A stretch of 64,000 nt of DNA from Pseudomonas fragi. GTDB taxonomy: Bacteria > Pseudomonadota > Gammaproteobacteria > Pseudomonadales > Pseudomonadaceae. Below the pieces are notes generated by a model, which was given only the letters and a program-made list of their open reading frames with translations, made no database searches and was not told where the DNA came from. The stretch's first letter is position 1, and each line of letters begins with the position of its first letter. The stretch is from NCBI RefSeq assembly GCF_900105835.1, contig NZ_LT629783.1:682001-746000 (forward strand). Direction: 5' to 3'. Both the position numbers and the translations under genes were made by a program. Shown here piece by piece: positions 17,096 to 24,736 of this stretch.

Positions 17096-17373
17096 ATCCG
17101 CCAGAAATCAGACCTGTGTCGATTTGTCGCAGGCCTTGCTGTACCCCGCGGTTTTACGGGCTGGCGACGTGGCCATGCACCATTGAGGGGCATGGCTGCC
17201 GTGCGACAGACCTGCGACAGTGGTAAATTCCATGCCCATGCAACACGTCTACCCCACAGCAATCGTGCGCACTGAGCCGGTCACTCCAGGCATCGGGCAG
17301 CGTACACACCTGCCTGACAGTGCGCAGGTTAAAGGCCTTGTTCGTTGGAAAAGGCCGCTTAAAGGAACCTGAC
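17096..17373. other. Leader region of the SCO-PCuAC pair with repeated TGCGACAG
   Basis: This 278-bp gap holds no gene. TGCGACAG occurs at 17202 and 17213, one helical turn apart, and the inverse TTGTCGCAGG is at 17124. These may be binding sites for the regulator of the copper genes. A short hairpin GCCATG...CATGGC also lies at 17172-17196. Confidence 0.35.
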
Positions 17374-17979
17374 ATGAATGATTTACTGACTCGCCGCCGC
17401 GTAGTCACCGGTCTTGGCTTGCTCAGCCTGGGGCTGATCGCAGGTTGCGACCCCGGCAGCGGTTTGTCATACAAATACGGCAAAGACCTCAGCAATGAAA
17501 TCCTCGGGCGTAAGTTCAAGCTCAGGGATGCGCAAGGCAACGAAATGATGCTGGGCAGCTTTCGCGGGATGATGCCGATGATTTTCTTCGGCTTTACCCA
17601 GTGCCCGGCCGTGTGCCCGACAGCGCTGGCCCGTGCCGCCCAGGCGAAGAAAATGATGGGCCCCGACGGTGACCGCCTGCAGGTGGTGTTTATCACCCTG
17701 GATCCTGAGCGCGACAAGCCGGCGATGCTTGATGCCTATGTAAAAGCCTTCGACCCGAGTTTTATCGCCTTGTCCGGCACCCTGGAAGAAACCGCGGCTA
17801 CGGCCAAGGAATTCAAGGTGTTTTACGAGAAAATCCCGACCGGCGATTCGTACACCCTGTCGCACACCGCGACCAGTTTCGTTTTCGATTCCCGTGGTGT
17901 ATTGCGCCTTGGCCTGTCGCCTTCGCTGTCCGCCAAGCAGTGTGCCGAAGACCTGCTGACAGTGATGTCAGTCTGCTGA
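17374..17979 (+). CDS. SCO1/SenC/PrrC-family copper chaperone lipoprotein
   Basis: Thioredoxin-fold copper protein, 201 residues, that helps build the CuA site of cytochrome c oxidase on the periplasmic face. The ATG at 17374 follows AAGGAA and gives a signal with RRR at 7-9 and a lipobox LIAGC (C25); longer in-frame starts upstream lack a signal. The metal site is C77 and C81 in QCPAVCP, with the distal histidine in LSHTATSF. A PCuAC gene follows 29 bp later, a usual partner in copper delivery. Confidence 0.92.
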   Translation: MNDLLTRRRVVTGLGLLSLGLIAGCDPGSGLSYKYGKDLSNEILGRKFKLRDAQGNEMMLGSFRGMMPMIFFGFTQCPAVCPTALARAAQAKKMMGPDGDRLQVVFITLDPERDKPAMLDAYVKAFDPSFIALSGTLEETAATAKEFKVFYEKIPTGDSYTLSHTATSFVFDSRGVLRLGLSPSLSAKQCAEDLLTVMSVC

Positions 17980-18008
17980 TCCTGTGCCCTTTGGAATGAG
18001 CCAACCCT

Positions 18009-18473
18009 ATGAAACCTGTTAAGTATCTGTTGTTGTCACTGCTGGGCATGAGCCTGCATGTTTCTGCGCAAACCGTAGTGGACGATGCCTGGGTGCGTGC
18101 CACCGTGGCCGGCCAGCCTTCGACCGGTGCCTTTATGCACATTACTTCGAGCACCGACAGCAAGCTGGTTGAAGTCCGCTCGCCGGTGGCCAGGACGGTG
18201 CAGATCCACGAGTCGAAAATGCAAAACGATGTGATGAGCATGAAGCCGGTGGCAGCGGTAGCGTTGCCTGCAGGCAAGAGCGTGGCCATCGAACCTGAGG
18301 GCTACCATGTGATGCTGATTGACCTGGTGAACCAGGTTAAAGCCGGTGATCAAGTGCCCTTGACCCTGATTGTTGAAGACAGCAAAGGGGTCAAGGAGCT
18401 GATTGAGGTCAAGGCCGAGGCGCGGGCACTCAACAGCATGCCGATGCACCACGACCATGGTGCGATGCACTGA
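18009..18473 (+). CDS. PCu(A)C periplasmic copper(I) chaperone
   Basis: Secreted 154-residue protein with an N-terminal signal ending near VSA/Q21. It fits the H-x10-M-x21-H-x-M copper motif exactly: H67, M78, H100, M102. The C terminus adds a histidine/methionine tail (MPMHHDHGAMH) that can also hold copper. PCuAC passes Cu(I) to SCO or directly to the oxidase CuA site; here it is in a two-gene unit behind SCO. Confidence 0.93.
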   Translation: MKPVKYLLLSLLGMSLHVSAQTVVDDAWVRATVAGQPSTGAFMHITSSTDSKLVEVRSPVARTVQIHESKMQNDVMSMKPVAAVALPAGKSVAIEPEGYHVMLIDLVNQVKAGDQVPLTLIVEDSKGVKELIEVKAEARALNSMPMHHDHGAMH

Positions 18474-18489
18474 AACACGGTTAAAAGCC

Positions 18490-18628
18490 TGTAGCCGCTG
18501 CCGAGGGACGAAGGCTGCGACCGGGTGCGTAGCGCCCGTGAACCCTGAGCACTCGGTGTACCGCACTGCCCGATCTTACGGGCGCTGCGCACCCGATCGC
18601 AGCCTCGCTTCGCTCCTCAGCGACTACA
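18490..18628. repeat. Long inverted repeat of a second REP class
   Basis: The left part (TGTAGCCGCTGCCGAGG...GGCTGCGA) is repeated in inverted order at the right (TCGCAGCCTCG...CAGCGACTACA), giving a 139-bp element with internal CGGGTGCGTAGCGCCCGTGA and its partner. It differs in sequence from the TGTGGGAGC class elsewhere in this window. It lies between the converging PCuAC and OprD genes and may stop transcription from both sides. Confidence 0.85.
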
Positions 18629-18648
18629 GTTTTATAGGCCGTTAATCA

Positions 18649-19992
18649 TCAAAACCGCCCCGTCAGCGGGTATTCGACCGCAAGGCGAATCTGGTCCGCA
18701 TCCAGTTCGGCCTGTGCAGTGTTGCCACGATGCACATTGTGTCGCAATGACATGATGGTGCCCTTGGCCACACCACTCTGCACCACATAGCGCGCTTCCA
18801 GATCCCGTTCCCAGTGTTTCCCGCCTTTGCCATAGCCCAGATACGCATAGCCGCCCCGCGGGTCAACGTGCGTACCGTCAATCTGGCTGCCTCGTACATA
18901 CGCAGCGCTGAACACCAGCCCCGGCATGCCCCAGGGGGTCATCGCCAGGTCGTAGCGCGCTTGCCATGATTGTTCGTTGGGGGCGTTGAAGTCAGACAAT
19001 TGCACCGCGTTGGTCAGGAAAATCGCGCCCCGCGTCACATAGTCAAATGGCGTGTCGCCATGCACTTTCTGATACCCCAGGCTGAAGCTGTGCGGGCCCT
19101 GGGCGTAGGTGCTCAACAAGCTCCAGGTGGTGTTGTCGATAGTGCCCGACAGCGCCTTGCCTTCATCGGTGGTGCGGTACAGGTTGAGGTTCAGCGACAG
19201 CGAGCGGTTTTCATCCAGCGCGTGGCTGAAGACGGCGCCCAGGTAATGCTGGTTCCAGGTGTTCTCGTAGCGCGAGGTGTAGAGGCTGGCGCTGAGGTTT
19301 TTGCTCGGGGTGTACACCAGCCCGGCCAGGTCGAATGCATCGCCCTTGGGGCCATTGGAATAATTGACCACGAACCCCTGGTCGTGGCTGCTGGCATTGC
19401 GGTCGGTGCTTTCGGTGAAATGCCCACCGACCATTTTCAGGGCGTTGAACTCGTTGCTGGTGAGGAACACCCCGGTGGCAGTCTCCGGCAGCAAGCGGCT
19501 GTCGGATGAACTGAACACCGGGGTCTTGACCCGTTGTTCGCCCCAGGACAGCACCGTATTGGACATCCGCAGCTTGAGGGCCGCGCCGCCGCGGCCGTAG
19601 TTGTCCTTGGGGTAGCCGTCGTTATCCAGGCCCAGCAGGCGAGCCTTGCCGGCGCGACCACCACCGCTGTCCAGCTTGAGGCCTATATAGGCATGGGCAT
19701 CCACCCCGACACCGATCAGGCCCTGGGTAAAACCGGACTGCAAGGTGCCCATCAGGCCGTAGGCCCATTCTTCGGCATAGCCATTGCGTTCGGCGCGTGG
19801 TTTGTATGCATTGCGAGCGCCGCTGTTGCTGGCGCCGTGGCGATACTCACGATTGTCGTAGACCGTACGGTTGACCAGGCTCCAGGTACTGTCTTCGATC
19901 AAGCCCTTGGCCTGCTCCTGGGCCGACTCCGCCAACGCCAGGGGGCTGGCGAGGGCGATCAGGATCGCGGAGCGCGTGCTTACGGCACTCAT
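18649..19992 (-). CDS. OprD-family outer-membrane porin
   Basis: A 447-residue porin with signal peptide (ALASPLALAES). OprD features: GLIEDSTWSLVNRTVYDNREYR at the mature N terminus, GFTQGLIGVGVDAHAYIGLKLD, RLLPETATGVFLTSNEF and alternating amphipathic strands to a C-terminal F. These channels take up small acids, peptides or amino acids. Its ATG overlaps the stop of the upstream pseudoazurin gene (ATGA), so the two are coupled and probably part of the cobalamin-riboswitch unit. Substrate unknown. Confidence 0.9.
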   Translation of the reverse strand: MSAVSTRSAILIALASPLALAESAQEQAKGLIEDSTWSLVNRTVYDNREYRHGASNSGARNAYKPRAERNGYAEEWAYGLMGTLQSGFTQGLIGVGVDAHAYIGLKLDSGGGRAGKARLLGLDNDGYPKDNYGRGGAALKLRMSNTVLSWGEQRVKTPVFSSSDSRLLPETATGVFLTSNEFNALKMVGGHFTESTDRNASSHDQGFVVNYSNGPKGDAFDLAGLVYTPSKNLSASLYTSRYENTWNQHYLGAVFSHALDENRSLSLNLNLYRTTDEGKALSGTIDNTTWSLLSTYAQGPHSFSLGYQKVHGDTPFDYVTRGAIFLTNAVQLSDFNAPNEQSWQARYDLAMTPWGMPGLVFSAAYVRGSQIDGTHVDPRGGYAYLGYGKGGKHWERDLEARYVVQSGVAKGTIMSLRHNVHRGNTAQAELDADQIRLAVEYPLTGRF

Positions 19993-20426
19993 TTCGCCAC
20001 CTGCTGTTGCAGTGCTGCATTCAAGCGGTCAAGTGCGCGTTTGGGCAGCGTGGCGGGCAGTACCGGGGGCTCGGCAGCAGGCTCGCCCACCTGGATCAGC
20101 ATGACCATGCCCATGGCCAGGTGCGGAGTACATTGAATGCCGTAGAGGCCGGGCACGCTGAAGGTTTGCTCCACCTCCTGATTGATCTTGCCCTTGAACG
20201 GTTGTGCGCCTTCAGGCAGCAGCCCGGGCAGGGTCGCAGCATTGTGGCCGCTTTGCGTGGGGATGAACTTGACCGTGTCACCGGGGGCAATCCGCAGGTA
20301 ATCCGGTTCATAGACCATTCCCGCATTGGCGCTGCGGGTGAGCATTTTGACTTCGTGGGTTTGTGCCAGTGCCGAGGTGCAGAGCAGGGCAGTGGTCAGT
20401 AGCAGTGTCAGGGATGAAATACGCAT
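19989..20426 (-). CDS. Pseudoazurin-type cupredoxin
   Basis: Periplasmic blue-copper electron carrier, 145 residues, signal peptide ending at ALA/Q22. Type-1 copper ligands are readable: H61 in SGHNA, C99 and H102 in QCTPHLAMGM, and M107. The start ATG at 20426 has AAGAGAA upstream. Pseudoazurins donate electrons to nitrite or nitrous-oxide reductases in denitrifiers; no such reductase is in the window. A C-terminal extension after about residue 115 is longer than in classical pseudoazurin. The gene starts 22 bp after btuD and overlaps the porin gene. Confidence 0.88.
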   Translation of the reverse strand: MRISSLTLLLTTALLCTSALAQTHEVKMLTRSANAGMVYEPDYLRIAPGDTVKFIPTQSGHNAATLPGLLPEGAQPFKGKINQEVEQTFSVPGLYGIQCTPHLAMGMVMLIQVGEPAAEPPVLPATLPKRALDRLNAALQQQVAK

Positions 20427-20448
20427 GTTGGGTTCTCTTAAATAGTGT

Positions 20449-21210
20449 TCAAACGCGCATGCGCAGGATCTGCGCGCCGTCAAAAGGGTCAGTCAGGTAG
20501 TGCGCCTGTACCCCGAATGTGGCCTGCAGCCGTTGCGGGGTCAGGACTTCAAGGGGTTTGCCAAGCGCCATCAGGCGGCCCCGCTCAAGAATTGCCAGGC
20601 GATCACAGCTCAAGGCCTGGTTGAGATCGTGCAGGGCAATCAGGGTGGTCACGGGCAGGGCCTGTACGGTTTTTAAAATGCTCAGCTGATGCTGGATGTC
20701 CAGGTGATTGGTGGGTTCATCCAGCAACAGTATTTGCGGGCGCTGCGCCAGGGCCCGGGCGATATGCACGCGTTGGCGCTCACCCCCCGACAGCCCGCGC
20801 CAGCTGCGGTCGCGCAGGTGAGTGGCATCCACATCGGCCAGTGCCTGCTCGACGATGGCTGTGTCCTTGGCCGACCACGGGCTTAGCGCCGACAGCCAGG
20901 GTGTCCGGCCCAGGGCAACAGCATCGAACACGCCAATGGCGTCATGGGTGTCGGCATGCTGTTCGACCACCGCCAGTGTTTGCGCAATAGTGCGCTGGCT
21001 TATTTTGCGCAGCGCCTGGTCGTGCAGTAACACCAGGCCCTCGCCGGGCACCCGCAAGTTGGCCAGCAACTTGAGCAATGTGGACTTGCCCGAGCCATTG
21101 GGTCCGACAATCCCCAGGGTCTCGCCGCGCTGCACGCTGAGGGTGATGCCTTGCAACAGGTTTGCATCACCCACGCGGTAACCCAGATCGCTACAGCTAA
21201 GTACCGTCAT
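20449..21210 (-). CDS. btuD: Cobalamin-type ABC transporter ATPase
   Basis: FecE/BtuD-type ATP-binding subunit of 253 residues. The Walker A GPNGSGKST is at 36-44, the signature [15 protein letters not shown] near 139, Walker B ILLLDEPTNHLD near 160 and the H-loop LIALHDLNQAL. It powers import through the permease encoded immediately upstream, with a 4-bp ATGA overlap. The vitamin B12 assignment rests on the upstream riboswitch; FecE and FepC sequences look alike. Confidence 0.85.
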   Translation of the reverse strand: MTVLSCSDLGYRVGDANLLQGITLSVQRGETLGIVGPNGSGKSTLLKLLANLRVPGEGLVLLHDQALRKISQRTIAQTLAVVEQHADTHDAIGVFDAVALGRTPWLSALSPWSAKDTAIVEQALADVDATHLRDRSWRGLSGGERQRVHIARALAQRPQILLLDEPTNHLDIQHQLSILKTVQALPVTTLIALHDLNQALSCDRLAILERGRLMALGKPLEVLTPQRLQATFGVQAHYLTDPFDGAQILRMRV

Positions 21211-22223
21211 CGTGCATGTCTCCTGCCGATCAGGATCAGTGCAAATACCGGCGCGCCCACCAGGGCGGTGACCACGCCGACAGGAATCACCTGGCCTTTT
21301 ATCAGGGTGCGCGACAGTACATCGGCGGCGATCAGGAACAACGCCCCGCCCAGTGCGCTGGCGGGCAACAGGCGACCATGCCCGGTACCTGCCAGCAAAC
21401 GCACGGCGTGGGGTATGACCAGCCCGACAAAGCCGATGGAGCCGACAATCGACACCATCACCGCCGTGACCAGCGCCGCACAACTGATCAGCAACAGCTG
21501 TACCCGGCGCACCGGGATGCCCAGTGACGCCGCCGAGTCCGCACCAAAGGTGAAGGCATCCAGCGCCCGCCGATGCCACAGGCACACGGCCAGCCCCGCC
21601 ACGGCCACGGGAACCGCCAGCCACACTGCAGGCCAGCGCACGCCACTGAGGTTGCCGAGCAACCAGAACATGATCCCGCGGGCCTGCTCGGAGCTGGCCG
21701 ACTTGGTGATCAGGAAGGCCGTGATTGCGTTGAACAACTGCGAGCCAGCGATGCCTGCCAGGATGATCTGGGCACTGGCGCCGGTGGGCCCGCTGGCGCG
21801 TGCCAGCAAAATAACCAGGGCGAAGGCGCAAATCGCTCCGGCAAAGGCCCCGGCCGAGAGTGATACCGCCCCCGCGCCCAACCCCAGCACCGCCACCAGC
21901 ACGGCACCGGTCGAAGCACCGGCGGATATCCCCAACAGGTAAGGGTCGGCCAGCGGGTTGCGCAGCAACGACTGCAACACCACGCCACAGGTGGCCAGCC
22001 CCGCACCGCAGGCAGCAGCCACCAGGGCTCGGGTCAGGCGGTAGCTCCAGACAATCCCTTCGTCGATCGGGTCCAGCACATGCCCGGCGGCCCACAGCTT
22101 GTTGGCCAGAACCTGCAGCACGACCCCGGGTGCGATCGGAGTTTCACCGATGGCCACTCCGGCGAGCACTGCCAGTAACAGTGCAACACAGGCTGCCAAG
22201 GCCAGTAGCGAGCGTGCAGTCAT
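21207..22223 (-). CDS. btuC: Cobalamin-type ABC permease (FecCD family)
   Basis: Inner-membrane permease of 338 residues with about ten helices. Family signatures include WSYRLTRALVAAACGAGLATCGVVLQSLLRNPLADPYLLG (around 55-95) and GSIGFVGLVIPHAVRLLAG near 265, the loop that contacts the ATPase. It overlaps the genes on both sides by 4 bp. The riboswitch ahead of the operon indicates cobalamin or a related corrinoid as cargo. Confidence 0.86.
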   Translation of the reverse strand: MTARSLLALAACVALLLAVLAGVAIGETPIAPGVVLQVLANKLWAAGHVLDPIDEGIVWSYRLTRALVAAACGAGLATCGVVLQSLLRNPLADPYLLGISAGASTGAVLVAVLGLGAGAVSLSAGAFAGAICAFALVILLARASGPTGASAQIILAGIAGSQLFNAITAFLITKSASSEQARGIMFWLLGNLSGVRWPAVWLAVPVAVAGLAVCLWHRRALDAFTFGADSAASLGIPVRRVQLLLISCAALVTAVMVSIVGSIGFVGLVIPHAVRLLAGTGHGRLLPASALGGALFLIAADVLSRTLIKGQVIPVGVVTALVGAPVFALILIGRRHAR

Positions 22224-23233
22224 TTAGGCAGGTCGTGTTGGCGGATGGCAGTGGCGAGTGTTTCGATCCCGTCGAACAGACGCAGGCTGGCCTGCATCGC
22301 ATGGGCATCGAGGACGATGATGCGGTTGTTTTTTACGGCATCCATAGTGCGGGTTACCGGGTCGGTGCGCAGGAATTCGAGTTTTTTCTCGACGTCATCC
22401 GCCGGGAAACGTCGGCGGTCCATACGCGCGATCACCAGAAACGTCGGGTTGGCCTTGGCCAGGGTTTCCCAGCCAACAGTTGGCCATTCCTCATCGGACT
22501 CCACGACATTACGTACACCAAGGGTGTTGAGCATAAAGTCGGGGATGCCTTTGCGCCCGGCAACATAGGGGTCGATATCCATGTCCGCACTGGAGAACCA
22601 GAACAATGCGCTGGTGGAACTCAGGTCCTTGCCCTTGAGTGAGGCGATGGATTTTTCCAGGCTGGCCTTGAGCTGATTGTTGAGTTGTTCGCCGCGCTGC
22701 TGCACATCGAAGATCTCGGCCAGCTGGCTGATGCTCTTGTAGACGCTGTCTATGCTGAACGGCTGCAGGCGTGTGCCGTCGGCCCCGACCAGGTTGTCCT
22801 TGCCTTCGCAATCCGAAGGCATCAGGTAGGTGGGGATGTTCAGTTCGTGAAACTGCTCACGGGTACCCACAACCCCCTGCGGCCCCACCATCCACTCCAG
22901 TTGCACGGCCACCAGCTCCGGGCGCTTGGCAATGACGGCTTCAAAGCTCGGGTCGTTGTCGGCCAGGCGTTCAACCTTGTCGTTCTGTGCCTGGTATTGC
23001 ACGGGGACATCGTTGAACCACAGCGAAGTGCCCACCAGCCTGTCGCCCAGCCCCAGGGCATAGAACATTTCGGTGCCGGCCTGGCCGATGGTTACCGCGC
23101 TTTTCGGGGCATGTTGAAATGTCAGCGGGCTGGCGCAGTTCTGCAGGGTCAGGGGGTAGTGTGTGGGGGCGGCATGGGCCAGTGCCGGCAACGCCAGGGT
23201 GGTGATGAGGGTAACAACACGGTGCAACAGCAT
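22220..23233 (-). CDS. btuF: Periplasmic corrinoid-binding protein (BtuF-like)
   Basis: Class III solute-binding protein of 337 residues with a signal peptide ending LAHA/A. It has the TroA/BtuF fold features GQAGTEMFYALGLGDRLVGTS near 47-67 and RPELVAVQLEW. The start ATG at 23233 follows GGAG eight bases upstream. First gene of the unit below the cobalamin riboswitch, delivering substrate to the permease. The sequence also resembles iron-complex binding proteins, so the cargo is assigned from regulation more than from residues. Confidence 0.82.
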   Translation of the reverse strand: MLLHRVVTLITTLALPALAHAAPTHYPLTLQNCASPLTFQHAPKSAVTIGQAGTEMFYALGLGDRLVGTSLWFNDVPVQYQAQNDKVERLADNDPSFEAVIAKRPELVAVQLEWMVGPQGVVGTREQFHELNIPTYLMPSDCEGKDNLVGADGTRLQPFSIDSVYKSISQLAEIFDVQQRGEQLNNQLKASLEKSIASLKGKDLSSTSALFWFSSADMDIDPYVAGRKGIPDFMLNTLGVRNVVESDEEWPTVGWETLAKANPTFLVIARMDRRRFPADDVEKKLEFLRTDPVTRTMDAVKNNRIIVLDAHAMQASLRLFDGIETLATAIRQHDLPK

Positions 23234-23344
23234 GGTGCAATCTCCATTTGATCGTACACGGGGCACAGGTGCACGGTCGGGAATGCATCATCGGGTACTG
23301 CTGCAGCAACAGTACTAAGCAGGATGCCTCCCCGGACACCCCGC

Positions 23345-23535
23345 CGGTTAGTTTTTGGACTTTGCCGGCAGGTCTCCTGACTGATGGGTCATCGCCTGCA
23401 CCAGCCTTCCCGGGGGGCTCCCAGTGGCAATTTTGGTGCAGGCTCGTCATCTACAGTTGCGGGGGCAGTTCCGTTGGGTGCTGTAACAGCACTGCGGATT
23501 CCCTTTTAACCCCCCGCGTGGGGGGACCGGCGGCG
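23345..23535 (-). promoter_or_regulatory. Cobalamin (adenosylcobalamin) riboswitch
   Basis: On the minus strand the leader of btuF has, in order, AAAAGGGAA, a stem-loop around CAGTGCTGTTACAGCACC, CTGCCCCCGCAACTGT, GCCACTGGGAGCC, GGGAAGGC and the B12 box AGTCAGGAGACCTGCC (23367-23382). This is the standard cobalamin aptamer order. About 110 bp separate it from the btuF start, room for an expression platform that hides the ribosome site or ends transcription when B12 is abundant. Confidence 0.93.
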
Positions 23536-23578
23536 GGATGATAATCGATCTTGTTTGCTAATGGGGCCGCCGTCAGAA

Positions 23579-24736
23579 TCAGAAATACTTAAGCCAGGTG
23601 ATATCCCGGCGTCGGGCTTTCAGGTTGGCGAACCAGCGAACCGGCAAGTACAGCGAAATGGCCAGCAGCACTGCCGTTAGCCACACCGCACCGATGCTGT
23701 CGAAGCCGAAATAGGTGGTCTGATTCAGGCCAAACAGGGCGACGCAGGCCAGGTACAGTACTTTGAGTGCATACAGATGCAACAAATAGAAAAACATCGG
23801 CGCCGCGCCAAATACGGCGAGTGTGCTGATCCACTTGCGTTGTTGTACCCGCTCAAAAGCCAGTAGCAGCAACAGGCCCACGCCCAGGGTCAGGGTCAGA
23901 AACAGCAGGGAAGGCGGGTACTTGGTGATATTGAAAAAGCTCATCAAGGTTTGTGTGGTATCGGCATGGCTGGCCCAGGGCGCCTCGCCGTAACCGTTGA
24001 GCAAACGCAGCGCAACAAAGCCGAGCAGGGCACCGCTGCCTGCCAGCAATAAATAACGCTGGCGCAAGGCCGCCGGAGCGGAGCGGGCAAACCAGGGCCC
24101 CAGGCAATAGCCCAGTGCGATAACGCCGATCCACGGCAACACCGGGTAGGAGGTGCGCATGCGCAAGCTGTCACCCACTTCAATCCAGCCGCGATCATGC
24201 AAAATCGCCCAGGGCACATGCATCACTGACCCCCGGGCAAAATGCAGGGTGTCGAGCAGGTTGTGCCCGGCGATGATCACCAGGCCGAGTACCAGCAGTA
24301 CCGGGCGCGGCAGCCACACCAGGGCAGCAAGGGCGATCATGCTGACGCCAATGGCCCAGATCACCTGCATGTAGATCACCGACGGCGGCAACTGGAAAGT
24401 CCAGGCAAAGTTGACCAGGGTGAATTCCAGCACCACCAGAAACAGCCCGCGCTTGAACAGGAACGCCGAGACATCGCGTTTGCCCTGATACTTTTCGCCA
24501 TACAGATAAGCCGACAGGCCAGTGAGCAATACAAACACCGGCGCGCACAGGTGGGCCAAGGTACGGCTGAAAAACAGGGCAGGGTCGGTGATCTCGATAT
24601 TCATCGGGTCAGCCACCTGGCGGTGCAGGAAAAACGTTTCGCGCACGTGGTCCAGCAGCATAAACAGGATAACCAGCCCGCGCAGGGCATCGATGGACAG
24701 CAGGCGCTGGTGTGAGGGAGGGGCAGTGGCAGTCAT
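23579..24736 (-). CDS. HGSNAT/DUF1624-like integral membrane protein
   Basis: Polytopic protein of 385 residues, about ten helices. The N terminus RLLSIDALRGLVILFMLLDHVRETFFLH is the hallmark of the heparan-alpha-glucosaminide N-acetyltransferase/DUF1624 group, with the conserved histidine in LDHVRE. FAHLCAPVFVLLTGLSAYLYG-like helices follow (TLAHLCAPVFVLLTGL). Such proteins may transfer acyl groups across the membrane; the substrate is unknown. A strong palindrome lies 18 bp before the start. Confidence 0.8.
   Translation of the reverse strand: MTATAPPSHQRLLSIDALRGLVILFMLLDHVRETFFLHRQVADPMNIEITDPALFFSRTLAHLCAPVFVLLTGLSAYLYGEKYQGKRDVSAFLFKRGLFLVVLEFTLVNFAWTFQLPPSVIYMQVIWAIGVSMIALAALVWLPRPVLLVLGLVIIAGHNLLDTLHFARGSVMHVPWAILHDRGWIEVGDSLRMRTSYPVLPWIGVIALGYCLGPWFARSAPAALRQRYLLLAGSGALLGFVALRLLNGYGEAPWASHADTTQTLMSFFNITKYPPSLLFLTLTLGVGLLLLLAFERVQQRKWISTLAVFGAAPMFFYLLHLYALKVLYLACVALFGLNQTTYFGFDSIGAVWLTAVLLAISLYLPVRWFANLKARRRDITWLKYF

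Follow-up and report, generated by a model that had tools for sequence, protein, structure and literature searches.

A pseudoazurin gene in a cobalamin riboswitch-led transporter unit of Pseudomonas fragi, with a possible role in cobalt or vitamin B12 supply

Why should a blue-copper protein and an outer-membrane porin be encoded behind a cobalamin riboswitch? This question is raised by a 64,000-nucleotide stretch of the Pseudomonas fragi genome (the window; assembly GCF_900105835.1, contig NZ_LT629783.1, positions 682,001 to 746,000 of the forward strand). A preliminary description, made from the sequence alone, recognised here one cobalamin riboswitch followed by five packed minus-strand genes, i.e. 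three for an ATP-binding cassette (ABC) transporter, named btuF, btuC and btuD, and one each for a pseudoazurin and an OprD porin. Apart from the gene names, this arrangement was borne out base for base, junctions included, and consists of the following features (window positions).

23350..23546, minus strand: cobalamin riboswitch aptamer (RF00174, 117.0 bits, E 1.1e-28)
22220..23233, minus strand: class III substrate-binding protein (SBP; Peripla_BP_2, EitA-like, not canonical BtuF)
21207..22223, minus strand: FecCD-family permease (PF01032, 287.5 bits)
20449..21210, minus strand: ABC transporter ATPase (PF00005, 120.2 bits)
20427..20448, minus strand: 22-bp gap between the ATPase and pseudoazurin genes, without promoter-like or terminator-like match
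19989..20426, minus strand: pseudoazurin (PAZ), a blue-copper protein (TIGR02375, 125.9 bits)
18649..19992, minus strand: OprD-family porin (PF03573, 457.6 bits)

The aptamer was aligned over its full length (1-189/189) and exceeds the RF00174 gathering score of 31.5. Overlaps of 4 bp join SBP to permease, permease to ATPase, and PAZ to OprD, the remaining junction (ATPase/PAZ) being the 22-bp gap. As had been described, pattern scans found neither a terminator-like site nor a promoter in this gap; the sigma-70-like promoter scan gave 0 matches on both strands of the whole 7 kb covered (17500-24500; mean of 2.1 in shuffled sequences), and the absence of a promoter from the gap therefore carries little weight. 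The naming of the last two genes was confirmed by the thresholds of their families (109.85 bits for TIGR02375 and a gathering score of 25 for PF03573), and the closest solved chain to OprD is Porin D (359.4 bits). Residues H61, C99, H102 and M107 of PAZ, which we take to be the type-1 copper ligands His-Cys-His-Met, are invariant in 14 aligned PAZ sequences from such units.

When gene order was surveyed in other pseudomonads, as the preliminary description had proposed, PAZ was found in 34 of 298 Pseudomonas genomes (6 of 59 in an earlier draw), and 31 of these 34, that of the window included, keep the riboswitch and the SBP gene upstream on the same strand. The permease and ATPase genes lie between SBP and PAZ in 29 of the 31 (absent in loci L013 and L230); in locus L248 the contig breaks off beyond permease, ATPase, PAZ and OprD, and L234 and L241, also among the 34, are without riboswitch and transporter. 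Of the 34 genomes, 28 also have OprD downstream of PAZ at a distance of no more than about 3 kb, with a gene of the major facilitator superfamily (MFS) in between in two cases (L012, L098). With four riboswitches per 5 Mb, rough arithmetic puts the chance of finding one only a few kb from any particular gene at well under 1%. The spacing is also tight: a median of 17 bp (range -8 to 56, 93 loci) separates ATPase from PAZ, and the median for PAZ and OprD is a 4-bp overlap (65 loci). These two spacing counts pool the genus set of 34 with a named set of 80 (see below), which share genomes; the other counts are kept separate. Some ATPase genes were missed by the gene caller, antisense frames having scored higher, and the counts rest on tblastn; riboswitches were called with a sequence-only model (R1) for 95 loci and, elsewhere, either by cmscan (RF00174) or by a sequence pattern.

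Roseomonas, Paracoccus, Rhodobacter and Ensifer share the same order, riboswitch-SBP-permease-ATPase-PAZ, and the unit spans the Gamma-, Alpha- and Betaproteobacteria. The named set comprises the best 80 of 88 loci obtained when the PAZ alignment was used to scan named genome contigs; the scan relied on peptide patterns from unit PAZ, which favour unit members. An SBP gene lies upstream of PAZ in 64 of the 80, in 62 of them with permease and ATPase, and a riboswitch was found at all 64 SBP-linked loci (by sequence pattern at 52, by cmscan at 12). Units outside Pseudomonas come from Pseudoroseomonas/Roseomonas (L164, L176, L180, L181, L183), Paracoccus (L170, L171, L182), Gemmobacter/Pseudogemmobacter (L175, L178) and a Paucimonas metagenome-assembled genome (L197). 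The remaining 16 loci are 11 pseudoazurins without nearby SBP or riboswitch (L185-L195), four relatives lacking the front of the unit (L123, L126, L128, L129) and one locus cut by a contig end (L131). Among chosen plasmid samples (7 of 632 SBP records and 9 of 302 PAZ records, the PAZ plasmid search not being pattern-based), PAZ follows the transporter in six of the seven SBP records (not in Pseudosulfitobacter, L269), all seven of which carry a riboswitch; the records from Comamonas endophytica and Diaphorobacter also have OprD after PAZ. Five of the nine PAZ records hold units, each with a riboswitch: Rhodobacter capsulatus (on plasmid pRCB133), Cereibacter sphaeroides, Thioclava, Paracoccus pantotrophus and Paracoccus kondratievae. 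Of the other four, two lie near nirK, one beside nos genes and one, from Roseomonas mucosa, without such a neighbour; no riboswitch was found in these four stretches.

Taking into account this conservation, the view that the cupredoxin and the porin belong to the riboswitch-led unit appears strongly supported, and it is very probable that PAZ forms part of a B12-controlled unit. The preliminary description knew of no B12 control of a blue-copper carrier and a porin, and this still holds in the literature searched, where we found no link of a cobalamin riboswitch to pseudoazurin or another cupredoxin, an earlier mention elsewhere being possible. In the parts of them seen, the papers on pseudoazurin and riboswitches all concern denitrifying bacteria and none reports such a link, and the review found on B12 riboswitches and OprD treats the two apart in the sections seen. 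The recurrence of riboswitch, transporter and PAZ in three classes points to a so far undescribed role of a copper protein in the supply of vitamin B12 or cobalt.

What does the transporter carry? The riboswitch-linked set of SBP, permease and ATPase stands as described, but the names btuF, btuC and btuD are too specific, since all three proteins fall below the respective cut-offs: 29 bits against 234 for the SBP (BtuF model), 208.6 against 334 and 218.5 against 461 for the permease (two BtuC models), and 126.6 against 281 for the ATPase (BtuD model). The transporter is not a canonical BtuFCD. The best family score of the SBP is to EitA (257.2 against a cut-off of 640), and those of permease and ATPase are to a putative F420-0 transporter, again below cut-off; on the three models of that transporter, TIGR03868, TIGR03869 and TIGR03873, the unit reaches 166.8 against 392.4, 296.7 against 437.35 and 272.2 against 372.4. 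EitC is second best for the ATPase (265.3 against 485). A fold search could not name the ligand of the SBP, as binding proteins for heme, siderophores and other compounds all match the class III fold; for the top match (4mlz) no ligand is named, and the absence of BtuF from the 50 rows listed is uninformative. Among the 120 homologues listed of 3367, no fusion of SBP and PAZ was found, PF01497 being the only precomputed domain.

Several known systems come close to the unit. With BtuB-BtuFCD it shares a cobalamin riboswitch, a class III SBP, a FecCD permease and an ATPase; it differs in lacking, in the window, a TonB receptor, in adding pseudoazurin and OprD, and in ABC components that miss the Btu cut-offs. 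It resembles the putative iron transporter EitABC(D) in the SBP and ATPase scores given above and in the MFS gene found in some Pseudomonas units, a parallel to EitD, which is presumably an MFS protein; it remains below the Eit cut-offs, however, and stands behind a cobalamin riboswitch. BtuFCD is considered hard to distinguish from related transporters (PMC2667541). A likely related unit is PSPTO_3256-3258 of P. syringae DC3000, compared here by description, in which riboswitch cobalamin-4 precedes an 'iron ABC transport system' for which cobalamin was not ruled out; in the part of that source seen (PMC2613906), three transporter genes are named and neither a cupredoxin nor a porin is mentioned.

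The window genome has four RF00174 riboswitches, the other three preceding cobW, cbtAB and cobO (genes read by eye). Its BtuB-like receptor (412.7 bits, below the cut-off of 599.7) is encoded convergently with a canonical-looking btuF-like gene (L198; read by eye), and no riboswitch was found at that locus. According to record annotation, cobW-cobN lies beside one unit (L264), cobO and cobW beside another (L270), cobA-cobF beside a relative without PAZ (L269), and a cobyric acid synthase gene some 2 kb from a further unit (L272). Genes read from protein letters add cobW-cobN beside a distant relative (L104), cobF beside a unit (L230) and a distant relative (L107), and metF together with a riboswitch-metE pair beside a unit (L176). 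In L173 (6516-8559) and L179, likewise read from protein letters, PAZ is followed under the same cobalamin riboswitch by mesX (DUF1852) and mesD, an arrangement present in 2 of the 80 named loci. The MesX-MesD pair is a B12-independent, oxygen-dependent methionine synthase (PMC7857596). The host itself is likely to make B12, CobN being present.

Is the pseudoazurin of these units the well-known one? In denitrification, pseudoazurin is the familiar donor of electrons to NirK and NosZ, and it shares its family and copper site with unit PAZ; unit PAZ differs in gene neighbourhood and, with one orphan excepted, in its side of the tree. In a tree of 50 rows, 39 unit-type rows (including four PAZ from the front-less loci) split from 11 others with an SH-aLRT of 99, and one strain, Paracoccus sp. 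IB05, has one PAZ of each side. Addition of 15 plasmid PAZ kept the split, with the SH-aLRT falling to 84, and placed the Roseomonas mucosa orphan (L275:4441-4887), which has neither transporter nor riboswitch, inside the unit branch. Within the limits of quick trees with SH-aLRT support only, the unit PAZ group stands apart from the pseudoazurins of denitrification loci. The unit copy of P. pantotrophus, presumably the source organism of the crystallised pseudoazurin 1adw, was considered as that very protein and rejected, as it reaches 107.6 bits only; it corresponds to none of the crystallised pseudoazurins (best match 115 bits).

Rearranged units offer a view of which parts belong together. 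In L013 (the same genome as L144), L173 and L230, a natural REARRANGEMENTS is found, with the SBP and PAZ genes overlapping by 4 bp and no permease or ATPase gene between them. A permease of 74-81% identity is encoded elsewhere in these three genomes; in that of L173, a riboswitch-permease-ATPase-OprD set occupies the HGSNAT site (L261). Since SBP and PAZ stay together without the transporter genes, PAZ may be placed with the SBP in the periplasm.

The history of the unit was followed through the SBP. A close SBP (66% identity or more) occurs in 64 of 149 Pseudomonas genomes, with a riboswitch before it in 59 of the 64 loci; none was found at L048, L078, L081 and L101 and a fragment at L099, and all five of these loci are PAZ-less. 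PAZ is present in 16 of the 64 genomes, a count that includes G076, where SBP and PAZ are on separate contigs. The PAZ-less loci L049 and L075 are cut by contig ends, with no PAZ match in their genomes. In eight more loci (L074, L080, L084, L085, L091-L094) OprD comes right after the ATPase gene without PAZ. In the SBP tree, likewise a quick one with SH-aLRT support only, PAZ-bearing rows are basal in the close family, PAZ-less rows are scattered inside Pseudomonas, and the distant outgroup rows are PAZ-less. This pattern would fit a PAZ that is old in the unit and was lost several times in Pseudomonas.

How, then, might a copper protein serve such a unit? Blue-copper proteins are one-electron carriers near +0.3 V, and the Co(III)/Co(II) couples of aquo-corrinoids are within reach of this potential. 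We propose, with somewhat less than even confidence, that the five genes form a B12-repressed acquisition unit with PAZ as a periplasmic blue-copper partner engaged in cobalt redox chemistry. At low cobalamin the riboswitch would permit expression of the unit, OprD (in pseudomonads and some Betaproteobacteria) would admit a small compound, and in the periplasm an organic cobalt compound, either a corrinoid or a cobalt chelate, would be captured by the SBP and then imported through the FecCD-type ABC transporter. PAZ would be the dedicated periplasmic partner of the SBP for one-electron transfer; its most likely task would be to fix the cobalt of the bound or arriving compound as Co(II) or Co(III), which may favour capture or release. 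In favour of this scheme are the conservation of the riboswitch-led unit, the SBP tree, the SBP-PAZ pairs without permease and ATPase, the B12 genes among the neighbours, the presence of CobN as a sign of a demand for cobalt, and the invariant copper ligands. Invariant aromatics of the SBP (W72, F73, W212, F213, W250, W255; 37 sequences aligned), together with the lack of an invariant histidine, are read as a pocket suited to an organic cobalt compound and not to a bare ion. The B12 response of PAZ and OprD, the ligand of the SBP and the redox step are what we infer. The parts differ in probability: for an action of PAZ in acquisition together with the SBP the chances seem evenly balanced, whereas a cobalt redox step performed by PAZ is more doubtful. 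Tentative, too, is the picture of PAZ fixing the oxidation state of cobalt for capture or release by the SBP, with OprD as the outer-membrane port where it is present. In its broadest form, a distinct branch of pseudoazurins would be the B12-repressed redox partner of a corrinoid or cobalt-chelate SBP, with a copper-to-cobalt electron step before import in a module found across three classes, a proposal that we regard as possible while the balance tips against it.

A works-like comparison can be drawn with ferrous-iron uptake. EfeUOB is reportedly a system of this kind, grouped with FtrABCD for comparison, and their permease, FtrC/EfeU, is not related to the ABC transporters of the FecCD type. 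In FtrABCD a periplasmic copper protein, FtrB, is part of a metal-import system (PMC11966278), and the likeness extends to this way of working only. FtrB is another cupredoxin type, however, and the metal of FtrABCD and EfeUOB is iron, not cobalt.

Several observations weigh against the proposed acquisition unit with PAZ as redox partner. Alignment of 37 SBP sequences shows no invariant histidine. The OprD pore is, to our knowledge, narrow for a whole corrinoid. PAZ is missing from the unit in 48 of the 64 close-SBP genomes and is thus dispensable for the transporter, and azurin, a possible substitute carrier, scores above cut-off in all 45 genomes examined (15 with PAZ, 30 with a PAZ-less unit); as it is ubiquitous there, it does not tell whether azurin replaces a lost PAZ. 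All 49 genomes examined, the window's included, have CobN, a result with no negative control, and for lack of contrast CobN was discarded as a test between cobalt and corrinoid. Of the separate permease loci, a riboswitch was found at L261 and none at L262 and L263 (the last near a contig end). By pattern scan no terminator-like site was found in the riboswitch leader, and folding of the leader in search of an expression platform, through which PAZ and OprD might be controlled, gave a result no better than chance (z -1.12; 32 of 200 shuffles as good). Moreover, five Pseudomonas genomes (L123, L126, L128, L129, L241) keep PAZ-OprD with the riboswitch, SBP and ABC genes gone; no cobalamin riboswitch was found in these loci and no permease match above 45% identity in these genomes. 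A short block found just before the riboswitch in L122, L124 and L125 is retained in L126 and L129, where it now directly precedes PAZ. The pair therefore has some value alone, which counts against a pure uptake role.

These reduced loci lend some weight to a B12-independent fallback, in which PAZ would feed electrons to a periplasmic or respiratory pathway replacing a B12-dependent one, OprD would supply its substrate, and the transporter would merely be co-regulated. The mesX-mesD genes behind PAZ in L173 and L179 agree with this idea, yet they are confined to those two named loci, PAZ is tied to the SBP-ABC genes in three classes, and no recurring oxidoreductase gene was noticed in the units read, where no systematic search was made; we consider it improbable, while giving it more credit than the other alternatives. 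Rather less likely, and about equal to each other, are two further explanations. According to the one, the ABC system carries a ligand that is neither a corrinoid nor cobalt, with PAZ and OprD as co-transcribed passengers, which would suit the siderophore-type EitA and F420-0 scores and the undiscriminating SBP fold; the riboswitch at 59 of the 64 close-SBP loci and the repeated B12-gene neighbours speak against this, and passengers would hardly persist in place across three classes. According to the other, PAZ made under B12 starvation would bind periplasmic copper and so spare the cobalt uptake route from competition. All copper ligands of PAZ are kept, and SCO1 and PCuAC genes flank the unit in relatives of the window, with a distant pair upstream in L127 and L130; this chaperone neighbourhood is nevertheless found only in close relatives (13 of the 80 named loci, counting either side), and cupredoxins of the pseudoazurin type are electron carriers, not copper stores.

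Very improbable is a feedback with denitrification, in which inactivation of B12 by N2O would raise PAZ through the riboswitch, and PAZ would supply N2O or nitrite reductase with electrons. Among 31 PAZ-bearing genomes, NosZ (TIGR04244 only) is above cut-off in three and NirK in five, with 0 and 1, respectively, of 20 Pseudomonas genomes, and the nirK- or nos-linked pseudoazurins opened fall outside the unit side of the tree. In the window genome both NirK and NosZ (TIGR04244) are below cut-off, NirS and the other NosZ type lying outside this test. A denitrification partner is thus largely contradicted for Pseudomonas and could hold in a few Paracoccaceae. As to the guesses first made about this locus, help in uptake is favoured here, a ligand other than B12 stays possible, and replacement of a B12-dependent path is weakly supported, given the rarity of mesX-mesD.

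The surroundings of the unit in the window are as follows.

18655..18669, minus strand: weak terminator-like hairpin overlapping the end of OprD (pattern match only)
23579..24736, minus strand: HGSNAT_cat-like membrane protein, upstream neighbour (PF07786, 57.2 bits), unit membership not clear
17320..17979, plus strand: SCO1/SenC copper chaperone, convergent neighbour (PF02630, 132.5 bits)
18009..18473, plus strand: PCuAC copper chaperone, convergent neighbour (PF04314, 122.3 bits)

Only 32 bp (23547-23578) separate the stop of the HGSNAT-like gene from the riboswitch, and the promoter of the unit must therefore lie there, inside the HGSNAT-like gene or further upstream. The last two genes are the pair of copper chaperones already noted as ending opposite the unit. 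Chaperones occur on the PAZ side in 11 of the 80 named loci, all of them close relatives of the window, and were rejected as part of the conserved unit. L127 (320-1404) and L130 (241-1334) have a SCO1/PCuAC pair that is more distantly related (74% and 57-59% identity) and placed upstream of HGSNAT, unlike the pair of the window, which lies downstream of OprD. Other genes accompany PAZ elsewhere: an MFS gene directly follows it, before OprD if present, in L012, L098, L232, L133, L134, L137, L139, L141, L150, L153 and L172, and in Alphaproteobacteria a class I S-adenosylmethionine (SAM) methyltransferase gene comes after unit PAZ (L171:6387-7154, L175, L178, L267:7683-8489, L271:4863-5651), overlapping it by 4 bp in L267 and L271. 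Three Pseudomonas loci (L012:9309-9481, L133:1379-1545, L159:1646-1811) have a manganese (yybP-ykoY) riboswitch in the vicinity of the unit.

The separate branch of pseudoazurins described here is tied to a B12 riboswitch, and most of the hosts tested are without NirK and NosZ. A possible function is thereby suggested for a family of ABC transporters annotated as serving iron, siderophore or F420-0 transport. If the link between PAZ and this transporter holds, the uptake of B12 or cobalt would include a redox step missing from current models, and a dependence of B12 supply on copper would become testable. If true, this would make PAZ the first blue-copper protein to take part in the supply of vitamin B12 or cobalt.

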